From Litorilinea aerophila (GTDB lineage: Bacteria > Chloroflexota > Anaerolineae > Caldilineales > Caldilineaceae): a stretch of 64,000 nucleotides of DNA. Both the position numbers and the translations under genes were made by a program. Of this stretch, positions 1 through 56,300 are shown piece after piece. Below the pieces are notes generated by a model. That model made no database searches, was not told the DNA's origin, and saw nothing but the letters and a program-made list of their open reading frames with translations. Position 1 is the first letter of the stretch, and each line of letters begins with the position of its first letter. Location of the stretch: NCBI GenBank assembly GCA_945897075.1, contig CAMDEX010000004.1, positions 1 to 64,000 on the forward strand, in the 5' to 3' direction.

Positions 1-776
1 AGGCTATGCCAATCGCGGCCAGAACGACGGGAAAAATGTAGTGGGTCCACAGACCAGCGGCGGCGAGGAGAGCGAAGGAAATTATGAATTGTGAATTGTG
101 AATTGTGAATTGTGAATGGCGGGTTGCGAGTTGCGAATGCGCACCGCCGCCGCCGTCTGCCGTCCGCCGTCCGCCGTTTCCCAACGCCCCCCAGACCAGC
201 GCGGCGCTTTCCAGCATCAACAGGCTGTACATGCGCGCCTCCTGGCTGTAGAAAATTTGGAAGGGGTTGAGCGCGGCGAGGAGGGCGGCGAGGAGGGGGA
301 TTAGGGATTGGGGATTGGAGATTGGGGATTGGCGACTGGCGACTGGCGACGACTGGTCACTGTTCACTGATAACTGCTCACTGCTCACTCTCTTCCCAAT
401 CGCGTAGACGACAGCGACGGTCAGCGTGCCGGTGAGGGCGGAGAAGGCGCGCAATGCCCACGGGCTGTGGCCGAAGGGGATGCTCCACAACTTCAACAGC
501 CAGTAGTAGCCCGGCGGGTGGATGTCGGCGGCCGCGGCAACGGCAATCTGGGCGAAGCTGCGCTGTACCAGCCCCCAGATGTTGCCCTCGTCGTGCCAGA
601 AGGAGGAGCAGGCGAGGCAGTAGAAACGGAGGAAGAGCGCGACGCAGAGAATGAGTGCAAGGGCGAGTTTCTCCTCGCGAGGAGAAAACGGGGATTGGAG
701 ATTGGAGATTGGAGATTGGGTGGGGCTGGTTGCGTCATTTTCGGAGCGACGCGCGGACGGTGAAATCTCCAATCTC
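1..776 (-). CDS. Partial GT39/PMT-like membrane glycosyltransferase (C-terminus beyond left edge)
   Basis: Manual minus-strand translation is open from ~776 to 1: ...EEKLALALILCVALFLRFYCLACSSFWHDEGNIWGLVQRSFAQIAVAAAADIHPPGYYWLLKLWSIPFGHSPWALRAFSALTGTLTVAVVYAIGKRV...LLAALLAALNPFQIFYSQEARMYSLLMLESAALVWGALG...FALLAAAGLWTHYIFPVVLAAIGIA. The DEGN, DIHPPGYYWLLK and SQEARMYSLL motifs are typical of GT39/ArnT-like proteins. Exact start unclear. Confidence 0.8.
84..184. repeat. Heptamer tandem repeats (GTGAATT, GAGTTGC/GGGTTGC, CGTCCGC types)
   Basis: attatgaattgtgaattgtgaattgtgaattgtgaatggcgggttgcgagttgcg... then gccgtctgccgtccgccgtccgccg; lies inside the partial GT39 CDS. Confidence 0.85.
300..391. 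repeat. Heptamer tandem repeats (GGGATTG, CGACTGG, CAGTGAA types)
   Basis: ttagggattggggattggagattggggattggcgactggcgactggcgac...; inside the partial GT39 CDS. Confidence 0.85.
691..720. repeat. Heptamer tandem repeat GAGATTG x4
   Basis: gggattggagattggagattggagattggg. Confidence 0.85.
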
Positions 777-2039
777 TCAATCTCCAATCTCTTTCATCGC
801 CTCGTAGACGGGCAGCGGCGTAAAATCCGGGGCGAGCAGGCGGAAAAAGGCTTCGGGCTGACGATTTTGCTCCCAGACATCCGTGGCCCGTTTCAGATAC
901 CAGACATTCGCCACGCCCAGCCAGGGCCATTCCGCGCGGATGCGCTGGTAGGCCAGGGGCAGATAGGCGGCCTGCTGTTCCAGCGAAACCCGGCCATAGC
1001 GGGCTTCCACAGCGGCCGGCGCGGCGTTCCAGTTCATCTCGCTGATCCAAAGCGCTTTGTGTCCATCGCCGTTGGCAACCATCACATCGCGCACGTATTG
1101 GGGGCGGCCAAAGTTCATCACCCGCGGTTGCATGCGGCGGTCGGTCGGGCCGGACCAGAGACCGTAGCCCTGGGCGGCCATTACATCAAAATAAGCCGCC
1201 GCGCCGGCGTCGTACATCCGTTGCAAGAAGAGCAGATCGTTGAAGTTGCGCCCGGCAATCGTCGTGCCGTCCAGATCGATTGTGGCGGCCAGCGCGCCGG
1301 CGATGACGACAATCTCCGGGTTGGCTGCGCGGGCTGCGTTTGCGCCCGCTTTCAGCAGTTCCGTATACTGCTCCGGGCTGACCGGGTAGACGCCCCACTC
1401 CGGGTTTATGTTGGGTTCGTTCCAGAGTTGGACGTACTTCACCCGTCCCCGGTAGCGGCTGACCAGCGCGGCCACGAAGTCGGCGTAGTCCTGGTAATCG
1501 TCGGGCGGGGCGTAGGTGCCCACCGCGTCACCCCCGGCCCGACTCCAGGCGGGCGGGTTGCTGATGCGCACGATCAGCTCCATCCCGTGCTGCTCGGCCA
1601 GGGCGACGATCTGGTCGTACTTTTCCCAGGCCGAGCGGTGGGGCTGGTGGCGGCGATCCTCAAAATCGCCTTTGGCGTGAATTTCGATGTCCTCCCAGGG
1701 GAACTCCTGGCGTAGCCAGTGAAAACCGGCAGCCGCGGCCATCTCCACGGCCAGGGCGCGCTTGTCGGGTTCCACTTCCTGCTCCAGAAAGACGTTGACG
1801 CCGTAGGGGTTTACATCCGCATAGGCGGTCACGGCGGTTGGGGCTAGCTTCACTTGGGGGCGCAGCAGCCCAGCGGCCAGATCGCTCAACCCCTTCACCT
1901 GGGCGGCAAAGGCCTCCTCGCCGGTCTGCTGCCACATCCAACGCCGGGCGGGGGGCGTACTCAACAACAAAAGGGCCAGCCCAGTTACAACGAACAGGCC
2001 GGCCCAGAGGGTGAGGGTTTGTCTAACCGCGCTTGTCAT
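777..2039 (-). CDS. Glycoside hydrolase, cellulase/GH39-like TIM barrel, N-terminal signal anchor
   Basis: 420 aa; hydrophobic N-terminus; FVAALVSRYRGRVKYVQLWNEPNINPEWG (catalytic NEP motif), WISEMNWN. Confidence 0.75.
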   Translation of the reverse strand: MTSAVRQTLTLWAGLFVVTGLALLLLSTPPARRWMWQQTGEEAFAAQVKGLSDLAAGLLRPQVKLAPTAVTAYADVNPYGVNVFLEQEVEPDKRALAVEMAAAAGFHWLRQEFPWEDIEIHAKGDFEDRRHQPHRSAWEKYDQIVALAEQHGMELIVRISNPPAWSRAGGDAVGTYAPPDDYQDYADFVAALVSRYRGRVKYVQLWNEPNINPEWGVYPVSPEQYTELLKAGANAARAANPEIVVIAGALAATIDLDGTTIAGRNFNDLLFLQRMYDAGAAAYFDVMAAQGYGLWSGPTDRRMQPRVMNFGRPQYVRDVMVANGDGHKALWISEMNWNAAPAAVEARYGRVSLEQQAAYLPLAYQRIRAEWPWLGVANVWYLKRATDVWEQNRQPEAFFRLLAPDFTPLPVYEAMKEIGD

Positions 2040-2406
2040 TGAGCCGTTTCGCTATAAAACCGAAGATGTGGCGTAAGGCTGATTCGGGGGAGTCAGTGGG
2101 AAGTTGGCTCTCAACCACATGCGACTCGCTGCCACTATGCAGGTGATGTGGAAATGTGCTTATTTCTCGGTGATGAGGCGCATTATCCCATCGATAAAGC
2201 AGTCCATCAATCGCTCTACGTTCCCAATGGAAGGCATACCCATCAGCGGCAACTCGCATATCTAAATAGGACTGGTCAAACAAATGCAAGCGCAGCACAC
2301 GCGGTTTGAGTGCTGTTCCCCCTACCAATACATTTCCTGTTATAAGATGCGGAAATTCATCCAGCGCTACTGTAAGCAGGCGCTGATATCGTTCGCGTAC
2401 TTCCAT
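2023..2406 (-). CDS. DUF6516 (TumE-like) family protein, putative toxin
   Basis: LRLHLFDQSYLDMRVAADGYAFHWERRAIDGLLYRWDNAPHHREISTFPHHLHSG: RWDNAPHH...PHHLH signature. Confidence 0.65.
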   Translation of the reverse strand: MEVRERYQRLLTVALDEFPHLITGNVLVGGTALKPRVLRLHLFDQSYLDMRVAADGYAFHWERRAIDGLLYRWDNAPHHREISTFPHHLHSGSESHVVESQLPTDSPESALRHIFGFIAKRLNDKRG

Positions 2407-6383: not shown

Positions 6384-8333
6384 CTAATAGTCTAGCGTCT
6401 CCCGCTGAATTTCCAAATCCCGGAATTGGGTCAGCTCTTTGCGGAAGAAGAGGCTGACGGTGCCGGTGGAGCCGTGGCGGTGTTTGGCGATAATCAAATC
6501 GGCGATATTTTGCCGGTCCGTGTCTTCCACGTAATAGTCTTCCCGATAGACGAATAATACCACGTCGGCGTCCTGTTCGATCGAGTTGTGTACTACAATG
6601 TTGCCCGCCACAAAATTGCGCAAAACGGGCACAGTCAGATCGTATACGTCACTATCGCCATCTGGCTCAATCGAAGCGATTTGGTCCCAATAAATGTCGC
6701 GATGTGCCTGTCCTGCGCATCGCCTATTGCTGGGCGCTCCTATCACCCCATAATCTGGCAAACGGATTGGAGTCCTCCAGCGCTGCCGGGTCGCGGAACC
6801 GGCGAGAGCGGGCATCAACAACCGAAGATCGTCGGGTGTCGTGATCCGATCCGCAAATTCTGTAATCCTTGTTCTCTCCAACGGCACAGCGATTCGACCA
6901 CCAACCCGCAACTCGTCCAACCTCGCCCAGCCCTGCATCGTCAGAAATTTATGATTGGCTGTTGCCTGGATTCTCTTCCCAAGACGTGTCGTCAGCCGAA
7001 AGATTGGCTTTATGCCCGTGCAAAAGGCATTGCTGACTGTGGCCTGTCGCAATTTCCAAGTAGTCGGATCGATTGACAGAACCGTAAACCCACTCGTCCC
7101 TGCCAGTGAGCGTATGGGAACGTATCGCCCTTCGTCCGGCAGGTAGATGGGCGTATCACCCGCCAGACAACCGCTCTCGCGCAGGTCGGAGAGCAGCGGG
7201 CGTTTGTCTGAACGGCTCTCCACAGCACGGCTGAGCTGGCTGAGGGCGACGACGGGCACATTGAGTTCGCGGGCCAACTCCTTCAACGAGCGGCTGATGT
7301 AGCTGATCTCCTGCTGACGGTTTTCGCCGCGGCCGGGCGCGCTGCTGCCCGACATCAACTGCATATAGTCAATAACGATCAGGTCAATGCCGTGTTCCGC
7401 ATAGAGACGGCGGGCCTTTGTGCGTATATCCATCACCGTTGCGCCAGGGGTGTCGTCAATGAAGATCTTCGTGGCCGCCAGTGTGTTGGCCGCCTCCATC
7501 AAAATCGGCCACTCCTCGTCATAGACCTGTCCCAGCCGCAGCCGGTGGCTGTCAATGGCGGATTCCACCGAAAGCAGCCGCTGCACCAACTGCTCGTTGT
7601 TCATCTCCAGGCTAAAGATCGCCACCCGCGCGCTGTAGCGTTTGGCCGCGTTCTGGGCAATGCTCAGCCCCAGACTCGTCTTGCCCATACCGGGCCGCCC
7701 GGCCACAATAATCAGATCGCTCTTCTGGAAGCCGCCCAGCATCTTGTCCAACATCACAAAACCGGTGGGCACACCCATCAACATATCCTGGTTGCGGGCC
7801 AGAAAGTCGATCTGATCCACCACCTTCGCCATAATCGAGGCGATAGGGGTCAGGTCGCGGTGGATACGGCTCTCGCTGATACCAAAGATAATCTGCTCGG
7901 CCCGGTCTACCACCTCGTCAACGTTGTTGCTCTCGTCATAAGCCAGTTCGGCGATTTTGCCTGCCGCGCCGATCAGCCGACGCAGGATGGCCGTGCGCTC
8001 CACAATGCGGGCGTAGTAGTCTACATAAATCGCGGTGGGCGTGCTGTTGATCAGTTCGGTGATATAGGCCGGGCCGCCGATGGCCTCCAGCCGCTCTTGT
8101 CGCTCCAGCTCGTCCACCAGCGTCACAAAATCCGCGGGTTCGCGCCGTTCGTGCAGCGCGATCAGCGCGCTGAAGATCCAGGCGTGGCGCTCCCGGTAGA
8201 AATCCTCGGCCCGCACAAAGCTGGCAATTTTGATCACCGCGTCGGGATCGATGAGCAGCGCGCCAAGCACAGCGCGCTCGGCGTCAATGTTGGAGGGGAT
8301 ACTTTTGAGGGGGAGGTCGCTTGTTTCGCTCAC
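6384..8333 (-). CDS. dnaB: Replicative DNA helicase DnaB, intein-containing
   Basis: [38 protein letters not shown]|intein|[17 protein letters not shown]-terminal [17 protein letters not shown]. Confidence 0.95.
6585..7169 (-). other. DnaB mini-intein (195 aa, no homing endonuclease seen)
   Basis: Starts [14 protein letters not shown], block B-like ATANHKFLT, block [25 protein letters not shown] followed by Ser+1; inserted between DLRESG and SIEQDAD. Confidence 0.92.
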
Positions 8334-12967: not shown

Positions 12968-15833
12968 GTGTTCGCTGTCCTATCACGAAAGTATCTGAGA
13001 ATGACAGGTCTCCTCTGCTGTGTCTTCCGCCTTCGCTTCTTATCTGTCGGGCTGTTTCTGGCCGGGCTGCTGCTCTCGGCCTGTGAAAGTTTACCCTCGC
13101 CGCCGCCCATCCCCCGCCCTGTGGAAGAGATGATGCAGGACTTCACCCTCTTCACCGATCCCGTTTCGATGCTGGGGGAGCGCCCGCCCGGTTCGGTCAA
13201 AGAGGCGGCCGAGTACTATCTGCAACTCTTTCAGCCCGGCGACCGACTGCCGCGCATCTTCGAGACGACCCACATCTACGACCGCACAGGCACTCTGCTG
13301 GCCGAGATTTTCAACGAGGGGCGGCGCACCTGGGCGGAAATTGACCGGATTTCGCCCTATCTGATTGACGCCACCATCGCCACCGAAGATTCTACCTTCT
13401 TTTTCAACTTTGGCATAGACGCCCGGCGTATTGTTGGCGCGGCCATCCAGAACGCGGAGGCGGGTGAAATTGTCTCCGGGGCCAGCACCATCACAATGCA
13501 GACAGCGCGCACCCTCTTTCTGCTGCCCACCAACCGCTACAACCAGTCAATGGAACGCAAATCCATCGAATTGGAGATGGCCCGCCAACTTTCCGACCGT
13601 TTTTCCAAAGCCGAAATCCTGGAAATCTATCTAAATCTTGCCAACTACGGCCATCTGGCCTATGGACCTGAAGCCGCCAGCCAGGTCTATTTTGGCAAAT
13701 CGGCTGCCGATCTCTCCCAGGCCGAGGCTACACTGCTGGCGGGGATTCCCCAGCAGCCCGCCAATCTGGACCTCTTCACCGACTTTGCCGCGGCCAAAGC
13801 GCGCCAGCGGGTGGTGTTGAATCTGATGGTGCGCCACGACTATTTGCAGCCAGAAGAGGCTGACGCCATCTACCGGCAGCCGGTGCGCTTGAATCCCCGT
13901 TCCGATGTGACACCCTCGCTGACACCCCATTTTACCCAATTCATTGAAGCAGAATTGGACCGCTTTCTGGTTGGCGCGCATCTGGTGCGGGTGGCTGCGG
14001 GCGGGCGTTGGGACAGTCGGCGCGCCGGGCTGGAAGTGACCACAACCCTCGATCTGCCGCTGCAGCGGCTGGCCGAACGCATCGCCGCCGAGTCGGTGAC
14101 GGCCGCGCAAGCCCAATACGGCATGTCCAACGGCGCGCTGGTGGCGTTGGACCCGGTGAGCGGTGGCATTCTGGCGATGGTGGGCAGCATTGATTTTGAC
14201 AACGAAGCCATTGACGGCCAGGTGAATGTGGCGACCAGCCCCCGCCAGCCGGGCAGCGCCATCAAACCCATTCTCTACGCCGCGGCCCTGCATCAGCCCG
14301 GCCACCGTCATCTGGGACGTTCCCGTCTCCTACCAGTTGGGCGCAGGTCTGAGCTACCGGCCGGTCAACTACGACGGGCGCTTTCACGGGCCGGTCAGCG
14401 TGCGCTACGCCCTGGCCAACAGCTACAACGTGCCCGCTGTGCGTCTGCTGCAAAGCGTGGGCGGCGAGCGGATGCTGGAGCAGGCGCACGAGTTGGGCAT
14501 TGCCAGCCTGGATCGCAGCGCGCGACAATATGGCCCCAGCCTTGCTCTGGGCGCGGGGGAAGTCACGCTGTTGGAATTGACCGGTGCCTTCCGGGTCTTT
14601 GCCAACGGCGGGCAGTATACACCGGCCAACGGTCTGCTGCGCGTCACAGACAGCCTGGGGCGGCTCTTGTACAGCCCGCCCGCGCCGCTGCAGGCCGTCT
14701 CCCCCGCCACAGCCTTTCAGCTCACCGACATCCTCAGCGACAACGCAGCGCGCACCCCCATCTTTGGGGCCAACAGTGTACTGCGTCTGCCCCTGCCCGC
14801 GGCGGCCAAGACAGGCACAACCACCGATTTCCGTGACAATTGGACAGTGGGTTATACCCGCCATCTGGTGGTAGGGACGTGGGTGGGAAACAGCGACGGC
14901 ACACCCATGCGCGGCAGCAGCGGTGTCTCCGGGGCCGCGCCGCTCTGGCGCGCCTTTATGCTGGCTGTGTTGGGGGATGAAGCGGCGCGCAGCCGTTTTG
15001 GGCTGCCCACGGCGACTGAGGAATGGAATTTTGTCCCGCCGCCGGATGTGACGCTGATTGACATCTGCCCGCCGAATGTCACCTGTCGGGCGGGCGGGGA
15101 GTATTTCAGCGCGGATTGGCTGGCGCGCACACCGCCCGGCAACCCCATCGCCGATTCGGTGGTGACGGAAGTGGTAGTGCCCACCCATCAGAACGGGGCG
15201 GGTGGCTCCTATTGCAGCCCGGACGAGGCGGGGGTCGGTGTGTCGCGCACACTTGTTAGTCTATCCAGTACGGTGGGGTTGCAACGGCCAAAGCCCCAGA
15301 CAACAGAAGGGCCGCTGGCCATAGCGCTGCGCCAGGTACAGGCGACGGACGAACCGGTGGTCACGGCTTCGTTTCAACCGGTTGTCTACTACCCCGACAG
15401 CGAACTGGAACTCTTGCGCCTGTTGGGGTCGGCGGTGGGTCGCGGCTCTTCGGTCTATGTGGGCCGCTGCGCAGATCTGAACTACTATACTGTGCAGCCG
15501 GGGGATAGCTGGACTGTCCTGGCGCGCAATGTGGGATTGAGCGTAGGGGAATTGCAGACGGCCAATCTACAGGCATTGCGCGGGAGTGGCTACCTGCTGG
15601 TGGGGGATCGGCTGCTCTTTCCCAAAGGGTTGCTGATCAATCAAGAGACGGAAAGCGTCTACCATACGGTGGCCGAAGGAGAATCGTGGACATCCATTGC
15701 CCTGCAATACGATCTGCCACTGCGTCTGCTGCTGGCGACCAACCCGGATGTGGTGCGTCCCTTCTACATTCTGCGCCCCGGCGACAGATTGCTTGTGCCG
15801 ATCAGCCTGGCCCAATCGGGCGAACTGCGTTGA
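12968..15833 (+). pseudogene. Class A penicillin-binding protein (GT51 + transpeptidase + LysM), frameshifted near 14290
   Basis: ORF 12968..14836 carries GT51 and SAIKP, then loses frame; ORF 14226..15833 continues the transpeptidase (ISPATVIWDVPVSYQLG...) and two LysM-like segments. Confidence 0.85.
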
Positions 15834-15970
15834 CGACCGCGTAGGTCGGACTGCCAGTCCGACCTACAATATGCGCCCCGGCGACAGATTGTAGGTGCCG
15901 ATCAGCCTGGCCCAATCGGGCGAACTGCGCTAACGACTTTGTAGGTCGGACTGTCAGTCCGACCTACAAT
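15771..15970. repeat. 100-bp tandem duplication: PBP gene 3' end plus palindrome GTAGGTCGGACTGYCAGTCCGACCTAC
   Basis: tgcgccccggcgacagattg...gaactgcg(tt/ct)(g/a)acgac...gtaggtcggactg(c/t)cagtccgacctacaat occurs twice with a period of exactly 100 bp; palindromes at 15841-15867 and 15941-15967. Confidence 0.92.
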
Positions 15971-22331: not shown

Positions 22332-22429
22332 GAGATTAGGGATTAGGGATTGGGGACTGGGGATTGGCTTCTGCCAGTCCCAGTCCCCAATCCCCTGTCG
22401 CTAGTCCCCAATCCCCAATCCCCAATCCC
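22331..22429. repeat. Opposed heptamer arrays (GGGATTG / CCCAATC types)
   Basis: ggagattagggattagggattggggactggggattgg...agtccccaatccccaatccccaatcccc. Confidence 0.85.
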
Positions 22430-22473
22430 CAAAACGAACGCCCTCGTCTCTTTCCGCGAGGGCGTTCGTTTTG
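22430..22473. terminator. Perfect 17-bp stem hairpin, probable bidirectional terminator
   Basis: caaaacgaacgccctcg-tctctttccg-cgagggcgttcgttttg. Confidence 0.75.
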
Positions 22474-53300: not shown

Positions 53301-56300
53301 CAATGAAAATGGCGTCATTCCCAAAGATTTCACGACCGTCGTGGATATGCTCTTGCAAGTCTGGGGCGCGGGGGGTCCCCAACTCTGGCTGGAAAGCAAA
53401 TGGACGACTGTCGTAGAAGTTTTCGACAGCGTGGATCACCTATTCCGGGGCAGCTATCTGGATTTGGGCAAGAAGACGCCGGACTCGTACATCAAAGTCA
53501 TCCCGATGGGTGACGCGCCCAATGGGGATCCGCCCGCGCCGCCGTCGGAACCGGTAGACATCAAAATCGCGGGCTATACCCAAATCGCCCTGACCGTTCT
53601 GGGCATTGTAGCGTCAATTATTGGCGACGAAACTTTCACAACCGTCATCGACATCCTGACCAAAATCGTGCAGATCTACCAGAAGTTCCGCGCCCTGGTC
53701 GAAACGATCAAAGCGGTGATCGATGTGGTGGACAAAGCCAAGCAGGTGGTGGAGACCGCGGCTCAAGTTGCCACAGAGCTTTCCTCTATGGCGCAGTCAA
53801 TGGCCGTTGTCGGGCTGATCTTTACGGTTGGGATCATCTGGATTTCGGTTCTGGTGCAGATCGGCGACCTCGGTCCTAGCATCGCCCTGACTATTGTGCT
53901 GCGCGCCATTGTGGAGACGGTCCTGGCTGTCGTCCTCTTTGTCGTAGCCCTCATCTACCCCATCGGCACAATCGTTGCCATCGCCATCGGCCTGATCAAA
54001 CTGATCGAGAATCTCATCGGCTTCCAGTTCGATCCCATCTCCCTGCTCTTGGACTGGCTCTTTGGTGTGGAGGCTGTCCAGCGCACAGACTTGAAAGGGG
54101 ATCCCCAATTCGGCGATCTGGTTCTGGATCCTCTACAGCCGGGTGCGGGCATCATTTCGGGCGCCGACTTCCGTCTCAGCCTGCCCGCCACTGCTGCGAT
54201 GAAGACCGTCAACGACGGCGTTAAAAGCGATCTCAACCAATCCTTCACCCAATTGCACGTGGGCCGCTTCGACGACTGGCCCGATCAATACCCCAGCATC
54301 TCTCTGCCCACCCGCGAAGTCTTTAACACATACAAAGACGAGGCGGGCAGCTACTATGCCGACGAATTCCACGCCGCCGAAGCCCACATTATCTATTACA
54401 AAGTGCCCACCGCTGGCTGGTATTTCAGCGCGGGACACAGCGAAACCAAAGGTACTACCAAAGCGGCGGGCAGCGGCTTCAAGCGCACCGACACGCTGTT
54501 GGGCTGGTTGGATGTCTCCCCCTCGTCGGGTATCAACAAGCGGCTGGTGCTGGACATTGCCATGGATGTGCGCATCCGCTACGACCAGTGTTCCACAGTC
54601 GGCGGCTGCGACGCCTATCTCAACGACTCCACCTCCCCGCCCGCCTTCAGCGAATTCTACTTCGACATCCTGCCCTCCTCCCTTCACGCCCTCTGGTATT
54701 GGAGCGAACTCAAGAATATAGACCCCGACGGCGACGGATTGGCCGGTTATGAGGACCCCAAAACCAAAAAAGTCTATGGCTTTGACGCCAACCTCTGCCC
54801 CAACTTCCCCAACGTCAAAAGCTGGGAGCAGTGGGACAGCGACAGCGACGGTCTCTCCGACCTCTTCGAGAAGACGACACCCGGCTTCAATCCGTGCAGC
54901 TCGGACACCGACAAAGACGGTCTCTCTGATGAACGGGAGCTGCTCATCGGCACCCATCCCAACGATACCGACACCGACAACGACGGCCTGACCGACCAGC
55001 AGGAAGAACCCTACGACAACGGCTTTGGCATCACCTGGCCCTGGACAATCACCCTCAGTCAGCAATATCCGGGTATGCCCAACCCGCCTGCTCTCCCCAA
55101 CCCGCGCCGGGCCAACTTTGATGGCGATTATCGCAACGACAAAAAAGAGAAGGAGAAGGCCAGCAGCCCCACCTCCTACAACGCCGTGCCCGTGGGCGAT
55201 GTGCTTACCTTTGGCATCGGCCAGAGCTTCCAACCCGGCGGCAAACAGAGCTTCTCCATCCAGTCCGCGCCCTGGGCCAACACAGAGGCAGTCGGTCTCA
55301 ATGTCAGTCTGACACTGACAATGCCCGTGACACTGGGCAGCCCGACCAACAGCGCCGCGCTCAAACCACCCTTCAACGTGCCCTGGTTAAACTTCGGCTC
55401 GTTGGAGGCTGGCTCCGGTCCGCTGGTCTATCGCTGGCTGCTGCCACCCCTCAGCCTCCACCGCTACCTGCAAATCACCCTGACCGGCGTGCCCGGCGCT
55501 GCCCCGGACCCGGCGGTCATCTACGCCACTTTGGAATATGACGAAGGCGCTGCCCATCAGACTTTTTCAACGGAGACCGCTCTGCTCGTCAACAGCGGCG
55601 GCCCCCACGTCACCTTCACAAATGTCCAGGGCGCGGCGGTCGTCAGCGGCCTAGACAGTGGACAGCGGACGGCAGACGGCGGTCAGTGGTCCGCTGTCCG
55701 CGGTCAGCAGACATCCGACGGCATCGTCACCATCTCCGGTCTGGCCGAGGACCCGGATCGAGTGCAGCAGGTCTTCGTCTGTGTCACCGGCGGCGCCGCC
55801 TGCCCCAACAACGGCTGGAATACGGCTATGGCCGTGGGCGGCAGCTTTTCCACTTGGAGCTTCAACTACGACCCGCCCGTAGAGGGAAGCTACACCGTCT
55901 GGGCATACGCCATAGATGTCTACGGCAAAGCGGGCAGCGCGGCTGGGCCTCTGGTCATCGGTGTCGATCAGGCCGGGCCTAGCGGGTTCAGCCTGAACCA
56001 GAGCGATTTCATCTATGCCAAAACTGTCAACCTGCCCGACCGCTCCCCCGCGCTGCTGCTGACCGGCGAATTGCAGGATGCGACCAGCCCCTACGCGGCC
56101 GGCGCGGGCAGCGTCGCCCTCGTCTACGGCCCAAGCGCGGTCAGCGTCCCGGTGGACCAGCCCGGCCAGCCGAGCAGCCCCTTCACGCTGCCCTGGACGC
56201 CGCCGGTTTGGGGCGAGGGTTCTTCTGTGCGCACAGCCCAGGGCTACTACGAATTGTTGATCGGCGGCGCGGATCAGGCGGGCAACGCTACCGCCACACC

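Follow-up and report, generated by a model that had tools for sequence, protein, structure and literature searches.

Repeat units whose length is not divisible by three are expected outside genes. Here, we asked what heptamer tracts are doing within the frame of a membrane glycosyltransferase gene, and how they may have come to be there. The gene lies at the left edge of the window, by which we mean the whole 64,000-nucleotide stretch of DNA analyzed (positions 1–64000, counted from the first base of contig C4; the assembly totals 6.38 Mb in 397 contigs, with an estimated contamination of 8.77%). A sequence-only reading of this stretch had described a minus-strand frame that stays open through three heptamer tracts inserted into loops of a GT39-like enzyme, and had proposed that the repeat class can spread through coding loops.

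An intact gene across a contig break

The minus-strand frame is indeed open from 787 to 2, where it exits contig C4 at its end, and the three peptides quoted for its tracts are exact. The gene had been described as absent from the open reading frame track; it is not missing but extends past the window edge. Bases 1–103 of C4 are an exact match to the reversed end of contig C166 (a 103-bp overlap), and the joined coding sequence has 864 codons, with neither stops nor frameshifts. Its product aligns end to end with the single-contig orthologues of three congeners at 69–71% identity. Because the joined frame is uninterrupted and the orthologues align over their full length, we ruled out a pseudogene; the stops or frameshifts that were to be looked for left of the window are not there. 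A profile search with the N-terminal part scored 29.2 bits to PF13231 (PMT_2), above the curated cut-off of 26.1, and a PDB search with the N-terminal 262 amino acids gave no match. Judged by its sequence, the gene encodes an intact membrane glycosyltransferase of GT-C type, and its host is a Chloroflexota bacterium that, going by the taxa named in a scan described below, probably belongs to the Caldilineaceae.

In the joined coding sequence, period 7 accounts for nine tracts and periods 5, 6, 8, 9, and 10 for none, against a mean of 0.024 tracts in 500 codon shuffles. The original three are all present but are an undercount, as the tracts group into five elements, with E1 where the gene begins, E2 and E3 farther on but still within the window, and E4 (a single arm) and E5 in C166. 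Most are not single tracts either, but paired convergent arms around a core. See Table 1 for the positions of the arms. The units had been held to be free of stop codons in every frame, which fails for tandem CAGTGAC, since it contains TGA; the tract at 352–389 stays open only by being short and by varying in its units.

Hydropathy agrees with the earlier placement of the tracts. E1 lies in the N-terminus of the protein, and E2–E5 occupy alternate inter-membrane loops, while the catalytic-side loop with WHDE is free of elements. By the usual GT-C topology all five sites would be cytoplasmic, the side being assigned from hydropathy only. At E1, the repeat now supplies the start region of a gene. 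The G-rich arm of E1 carries the TTG start and a GGAG motif in register, and this stretch is near-identical in four congeners, whereas the other arms turn over.

Table 1. Positions of the glycosyltransferase gene, its heptamer arms, and related features in the window
Feature	Position	Strand	Remarks
Overlap of contigs C4 and C166	1–103		Assembly break inside or adjoining a heptamer tract
PMT_2-type GT-C glycosyltransferase CDS, N-terminal 262 codons	1–787	-	TTG start at 787; rest in C166 (L009 1-1911); total 864 aa
E3 C-rich arm	80–136	-	TCGCAAC then TTCACAA; peptide SQLATRHSQFTIHNSQFII; period-7 tract
E3 G-rich arm	152–177	-	ACGGCGG; peptide NGGRRTADG; period-7 tract
E2 C-rich arm	297–350	-	CCAGTCG then CCAATCC; peptide SPVASRQSPISNPQSLIP; period-7 tract
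E2 G-rich arm	352–389	-	AGTGAGC/AGTGAAC; peptide VSSEQLSVNSDQS; period-7 tract
E1 C-rich arm	690–719	-	(CCAATCT)n; peptide TQSPISNLQSP; period-7 tract
E1 G-rich arm	764–792	-	GAGATTGGAGATT on the gene strand; includes TTG start, overlaps stop of upstream gene
Upstream gene, PF00150 GH5-like, 420 aa	777–2039	-	Last codons (KEIGD-stop) encoded by E1 G-rich arm
Convergent heptamer pair	22334–22432		GGGGATT arm, core CTTCTGCCAGT, AATCCCC arm; same anatomy as the elements of the glycosyltransferase gene
Heptamer cluster in frame within 3454-aa ORF	55654–55719	+	In the census sample

Several other features of the window were seen in passing. The replicative helicase DnaB (6384–8333, minus strand) has an intein splicing domain (PF14890, residues 396–583) within its ATPase domain, and the domain search reported no homing endonuclease domain in this intein. 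A TumE-type toxin gene (2023–2406, minus strand; PF20126, E = 8e-17) adjoins a 108-aa ORF (2357–2683) that may be its partner. A 100-bp tandem repeat of 2.1 copies at 15764–15970 is unrelated to the heptamers.

Convergent heptamer pairs across the genome

We next counted such tracts in a census sample of 879 kb, about 14% of the genome, made up of contig starts together with the window, C166, and part of C22, the last three having entered because of their hits. The sample contains 169 period-7 tracts, while the other periods from 4 to 12 give 0–60 each and triplet-shuffled sequence gives no period-7 tract at all. Together with the codon shuffles of the glycosyltransferase gene, this rules out chance as the origin of the tracts. 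The units fall into 61 classes, all of period 7, with ATTGGGG the commonest (32 of 169 tracts). The genome therefore shows the feature of the heptamer simple-sequence class, namely, G-rich 7-nt tandem units dispersed over the genome.

The tracts are often paired in convergent order, an arm of G-rich heptamers first and one of C-rich heptamers last, with a short unrelated core between the two. Neighboring tracts 3–40 nt apart in the census sample are convergent in 35 cases, reversed in 1, and of the same orientation in 4. G-runs capable of forming quadruplexes are found in many arms, yet they are not required: pairs with no GGG or CCC in either arm number 13 convergent and 0 reversed. Quadruplexes were dropped as the cause of the polarity because arms lacking G-runs obey the same rule.

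We then ran pattern scans over 199 genomes of the class, the counts of which include overlapping registers of one element. Convergent matches numbered 32 in G000, 16 in G001, 54 in G017, and 21 in G136 on this basis, with no reversed match in any of the four; reversed matches occurred in three genomes (G157, G143, and G168). At four places in G157 (L111, L113, L114), the order is C-rich arm, core, G-rich arm, with no convergent matches to that pattern. In a scan of named genomes, the convergent GGGGATT form turned up in Caldilineaceae MAGs, Litorilinea, Stenotrophomonas, and Lysobacter, and also in MAGs of Acidobacteria gp6 and Ruminococcus (a single contig in the latter) and in an uncultured cyanobacterium.

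The two arms of a pair are related to one another. Their units differ by a mean mismatch of 1.60 within pairs vs 2.44 ± 0.14 under random pairing, which rules out an independent origin of the two arms, and they pair across the core better than chance (stem of 6.6 vs 5.3 ± 0.2 expected). Arm lengths within pairs are uncorrelated, and about one third of pairs have unlike arm units. A search for target-site duplications at 79 elements found none (shared flank 3.46 vs 3.54 ± 0.10 at random), only 1 of 351 pairs of cores had at least 8 bases in common, and pairing of the outer flanks was looked for and not found. With no target-site duplication and no common body, the elements are not classical MITEs.

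Residence within genes and selection

Many coding sequences have been entered, as the idea of a class spreading through coding loops implied. In the census sample, 31 of 121 tract clusters lie within open frames, in 23 ORFs by heuristic gene calls, among which ORFs 2 and 19, and perhaps 15, may be spurious. The hosts include NAD-dependent DNA ligase (LigA), TrpF, Elp3, a copper P-type ATPase, glucan phosphorylase, a DegT-type aminotransferase, HyuB, and two more PMT-type enzymes, without any single common function; these names are our reading of the sequences, with LigA also compared to the PDB. The LigA insert spans query residues 164–204, replacing the equivalent of residues 161–163 of Escherichia coli LigA (2OWO). 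A YfhO-like membrane enzyme (L027 12007-13288, in G000:C19) has five heptamer clusters in one gene, as dense as the glycosyltransferase gene.

On the sense strand, 9 of 55 intragenic tracts include a stop trinucleotide, compared with 130 of 310 strands elsewhere (odds ratio of 0.27, P = 0.00025). Such stop avoidance reads as a mark of purifying selection.

The same sites in related genomes

Orthologues of the glycosyltransferase in congeners have tracts at the same loops, often with other units. For example, the E4 unit is TACGCAA in the query and CCAATCT in G006 and G001. Among orthologues from other genera, tracts are found in G020 and G010 only, and most other genera of the family are without the elements. 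The orthologue alignment bears out that these segments have been added, when compared with most homologues from outside the genus. Insertion is only part of the change, however: the loops are lengthened, but several inserts also take the place of old loop residues, so an exact empty site is unreadable at these distances.

LigA, TrpF, and Elp3 follow the glycosyltransferase, with the same site and a different unit in congeners. The LigA insert is present in five of the six congeners examined, with varying unit and length, and missing in G004 and in all examined genomes outside the genus. In these alignments, the position in the loop is constant between species and the repeat content varies.

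Formation of the elements

We favor the explanation, to which we give a probability of roughly two in three, that about five heptamer hairpins, belonging to a genome-wide family, rebuilt the N-terminus and four inter-membrane loops of the glycosyltransferase, and that such hairpins form in place by fold-back and slippage and are filtered by selection. A nascent strand ending in G-rich heptamers would fold back at a short hairpin and give rise to the C-rich arm, which would yield the observed convergent polarity. Slippage in 7-nt steps would lengthen, mutate, and rewrite each arm separately. The insertions may be neutral or slightly harmful, and selection would purge those that shift the frame, carry stops, or hit the structure, so that those in loops and at termini remain; the added peptide would have no specific function. 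Formation in place is favored over copy-and-paste because the elements show neither a target duplication nor a recurring core, and their outer flanks are unpaired. For the same reasons, spread in the sense of transposition fits less well. Three observations count against our explanation. The uncorrelated arm lengths argue against a simple fold-back without later slippage, the unlike arms in about one third of pairs are unexplained by fold-back alone, and some genomes, such as G157, have the opposite polarity. A missing SbcCD was ruled out as the cause, as SbcD-like hits occur in heptamer-rich and heptamer-poor genomes alike.

It is unlikely that Y1 transposases (IS200/IS605, RAYT-like) instead mobilize the elements as single-stranded hairpins, which would make them non-autonomous palindromes comparable to REP/BIME or Rickettsia palindromic elements. 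The convergent pairs look like inverted REP pairs, and Y1_Tnp (PF01797) genes are present in all heptamer-rich genomes examined (seven each in G000 and G001, five in G005, six in G006, four in G017, and three in G136) and in none of seven low-repeat relatives, although these seven represent about two clades of mostly smaller genomes. One Y1 gene (L228, G006:C64) has matched heptamer arms on both sides (TTCTGGT ... ACCAGAA), but such arms flank the Y1 gene at just 1 of 20 loci, and the surroundings of Y1 genes have 125 tracts per Mb vs about 190 genome-wide. Unrelated cores and the lack of target duplication also weigh against mobility. RAYT mobilization is thus suggested by co-occurrence but not borne out by the flanking test, and we set it aside. 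Separately, a heptamer element sits at the start codon, or adjoins it, in all of three similar Y1_Tnp genes (L223, L226, and L229, in G000, G001, and G006).

We also see only a small chance that the tracts are kept for a function, be it as disordered linkers, in translational control, or as switches phase-varied by 7-nt slippage. Sites are conserved over congeners in four gene families, and the near-identical G-rich arm of E1, with its GGAG motif and TTG start, would suit such a role. However, unit type, length, and peptide vary freely at one site, congener G004 has no LigA insert, and the host genes share no function. LigA is expected to be essential, and slippage by a single unit would put it out of frame, which makes phase variation improbable as a general role.

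A more far-reaching proposal, which we regard as a long shot, is that a strand-specific and probably enzyme-driven process writes changing 7-nt units outward from small hairpins, with fixed polarity genome-wide, and keeps rewriting the same protein loops. If true, enzyme-driven writing would continually supply essential enzymes with new peptide segments.

We give still less credence to a dedicated activity that extends 3' DNA ends by G-rich units of 7 nt prior to joining, leaving a scar like a telomere fusion. Two G-rich 3' ends meeting would produce convergent polarity, unlike arms could meet, and the length of 7 would stay fixed while units vary, but the arm units are coupled above random. 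A Ku gene is found in none of 16 genomes, which rules out Ku-dependent end joining, and we know of no candidate enzyme for adding 7-nt units to 3' ends.

Finally, an artefact of assembly or binning, or a pseudogene in decay, which 397 contigs, 8.77% contamination, and a contig break adjoining a tract might bring to mind, is hardly credible and is refuted for the glycosyltransferase gene, as its 864-codon frame is intact and three congeners, in other assemblies with the gene on single contigs, have tracts at the same sites.

In practice, heptamer elements break assemblies and can mislead gene callers. Conserved enzymes, DNA ligase among them, contain heptamers in frame, and the rewriting of these at fixed loops from species to species offers a natural record of loops that tolerate insertion. 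The fixed convergent polarity, independent of G-runs, constrains how heptamer repeats can form, and it makes an old question, the bacterial preference for 7-nt repeats, testable.

Comparison with known repeat systems

Literature searches on heptamer repeats in Chloroflexota found no report. In other phyla, Xanthomonas has 70–75 convergent GGGAATC pairs per genome, mostly intergenic, and Nostoc has few pairs (Rehm et al. 2015, PMC4692102). The GGGAATC and GGGGA(C/T)T repeats of these genomes are 7–11% intragenic, partly through mere ORF overlap (PMC4692102). Like the elements described here, the Xanthomonas, Nostoc, and cyanobacterial STRR heptamers are dispersed G-rich 7-nt units, and Xanthomonas shares the convergent polarity. 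However, Xanthomonas and Nostoc have one unit class per genome, while here there are 61 classes, the two arms of a pair can have different units, the polarity does not depend on G-runs, and roughly one cluster in four lies in frame within a gene.

The TAACTGA repeats of Beggiatoaceae are heptamer direct repeats as well, some of them inside ORFs and at protein edges (MacGregor 2015, PMC4679880), and some are reversed within ORFs and read as a heptapeptide. They differ in being mostly direct repeats 5' of start codons, with one inverted case and no paired arms in conserved enzymes. REP/BIME sequences with RAYTs are likewise small palindromic or inverted units found many times in a genome, with Y1 transposases present, but a RAYT gene invariably has inverted REPs on its flanks (Nunvar et al. 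2010, PMC2817692), whereas the Y1 genes here are generally without flanking heptamer arms.

Tandem repeats of Borgs evolve fast and add peptide to proteins (Schoelmerich et al. 2023, PMC9879509). Within ORFs, they form perfect tandem repeats at the amino-acid level and are strongly selected, in contrast to the imperfect 7-nt inverted pairs seen here. Rickettsia palindromic elements (Ogata et al., as reviewed in PMC10969869) are palindromic DNA tolerated in frame in unrelated genes; they form families of ~150 bp with a recognizable body and a conserved peptide, unlike the unrelated cores and simple-repeat arms here. Our elements share the in-frame residence in unrelated genes (23 ORFs) and not the conserved body. 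Rickettsia palindromic elements are the closest precedent for in-frame palindromic DNA, and Borg repeats for protein segments built from repeats. The kind is known, as convergent heptamer pairs, mostly intergenic, occur in Xanthomonas; new are the mixed arms, the in-frame residence in essential enzymes, the rewriting at the same sites, and the polarity without G-runs.
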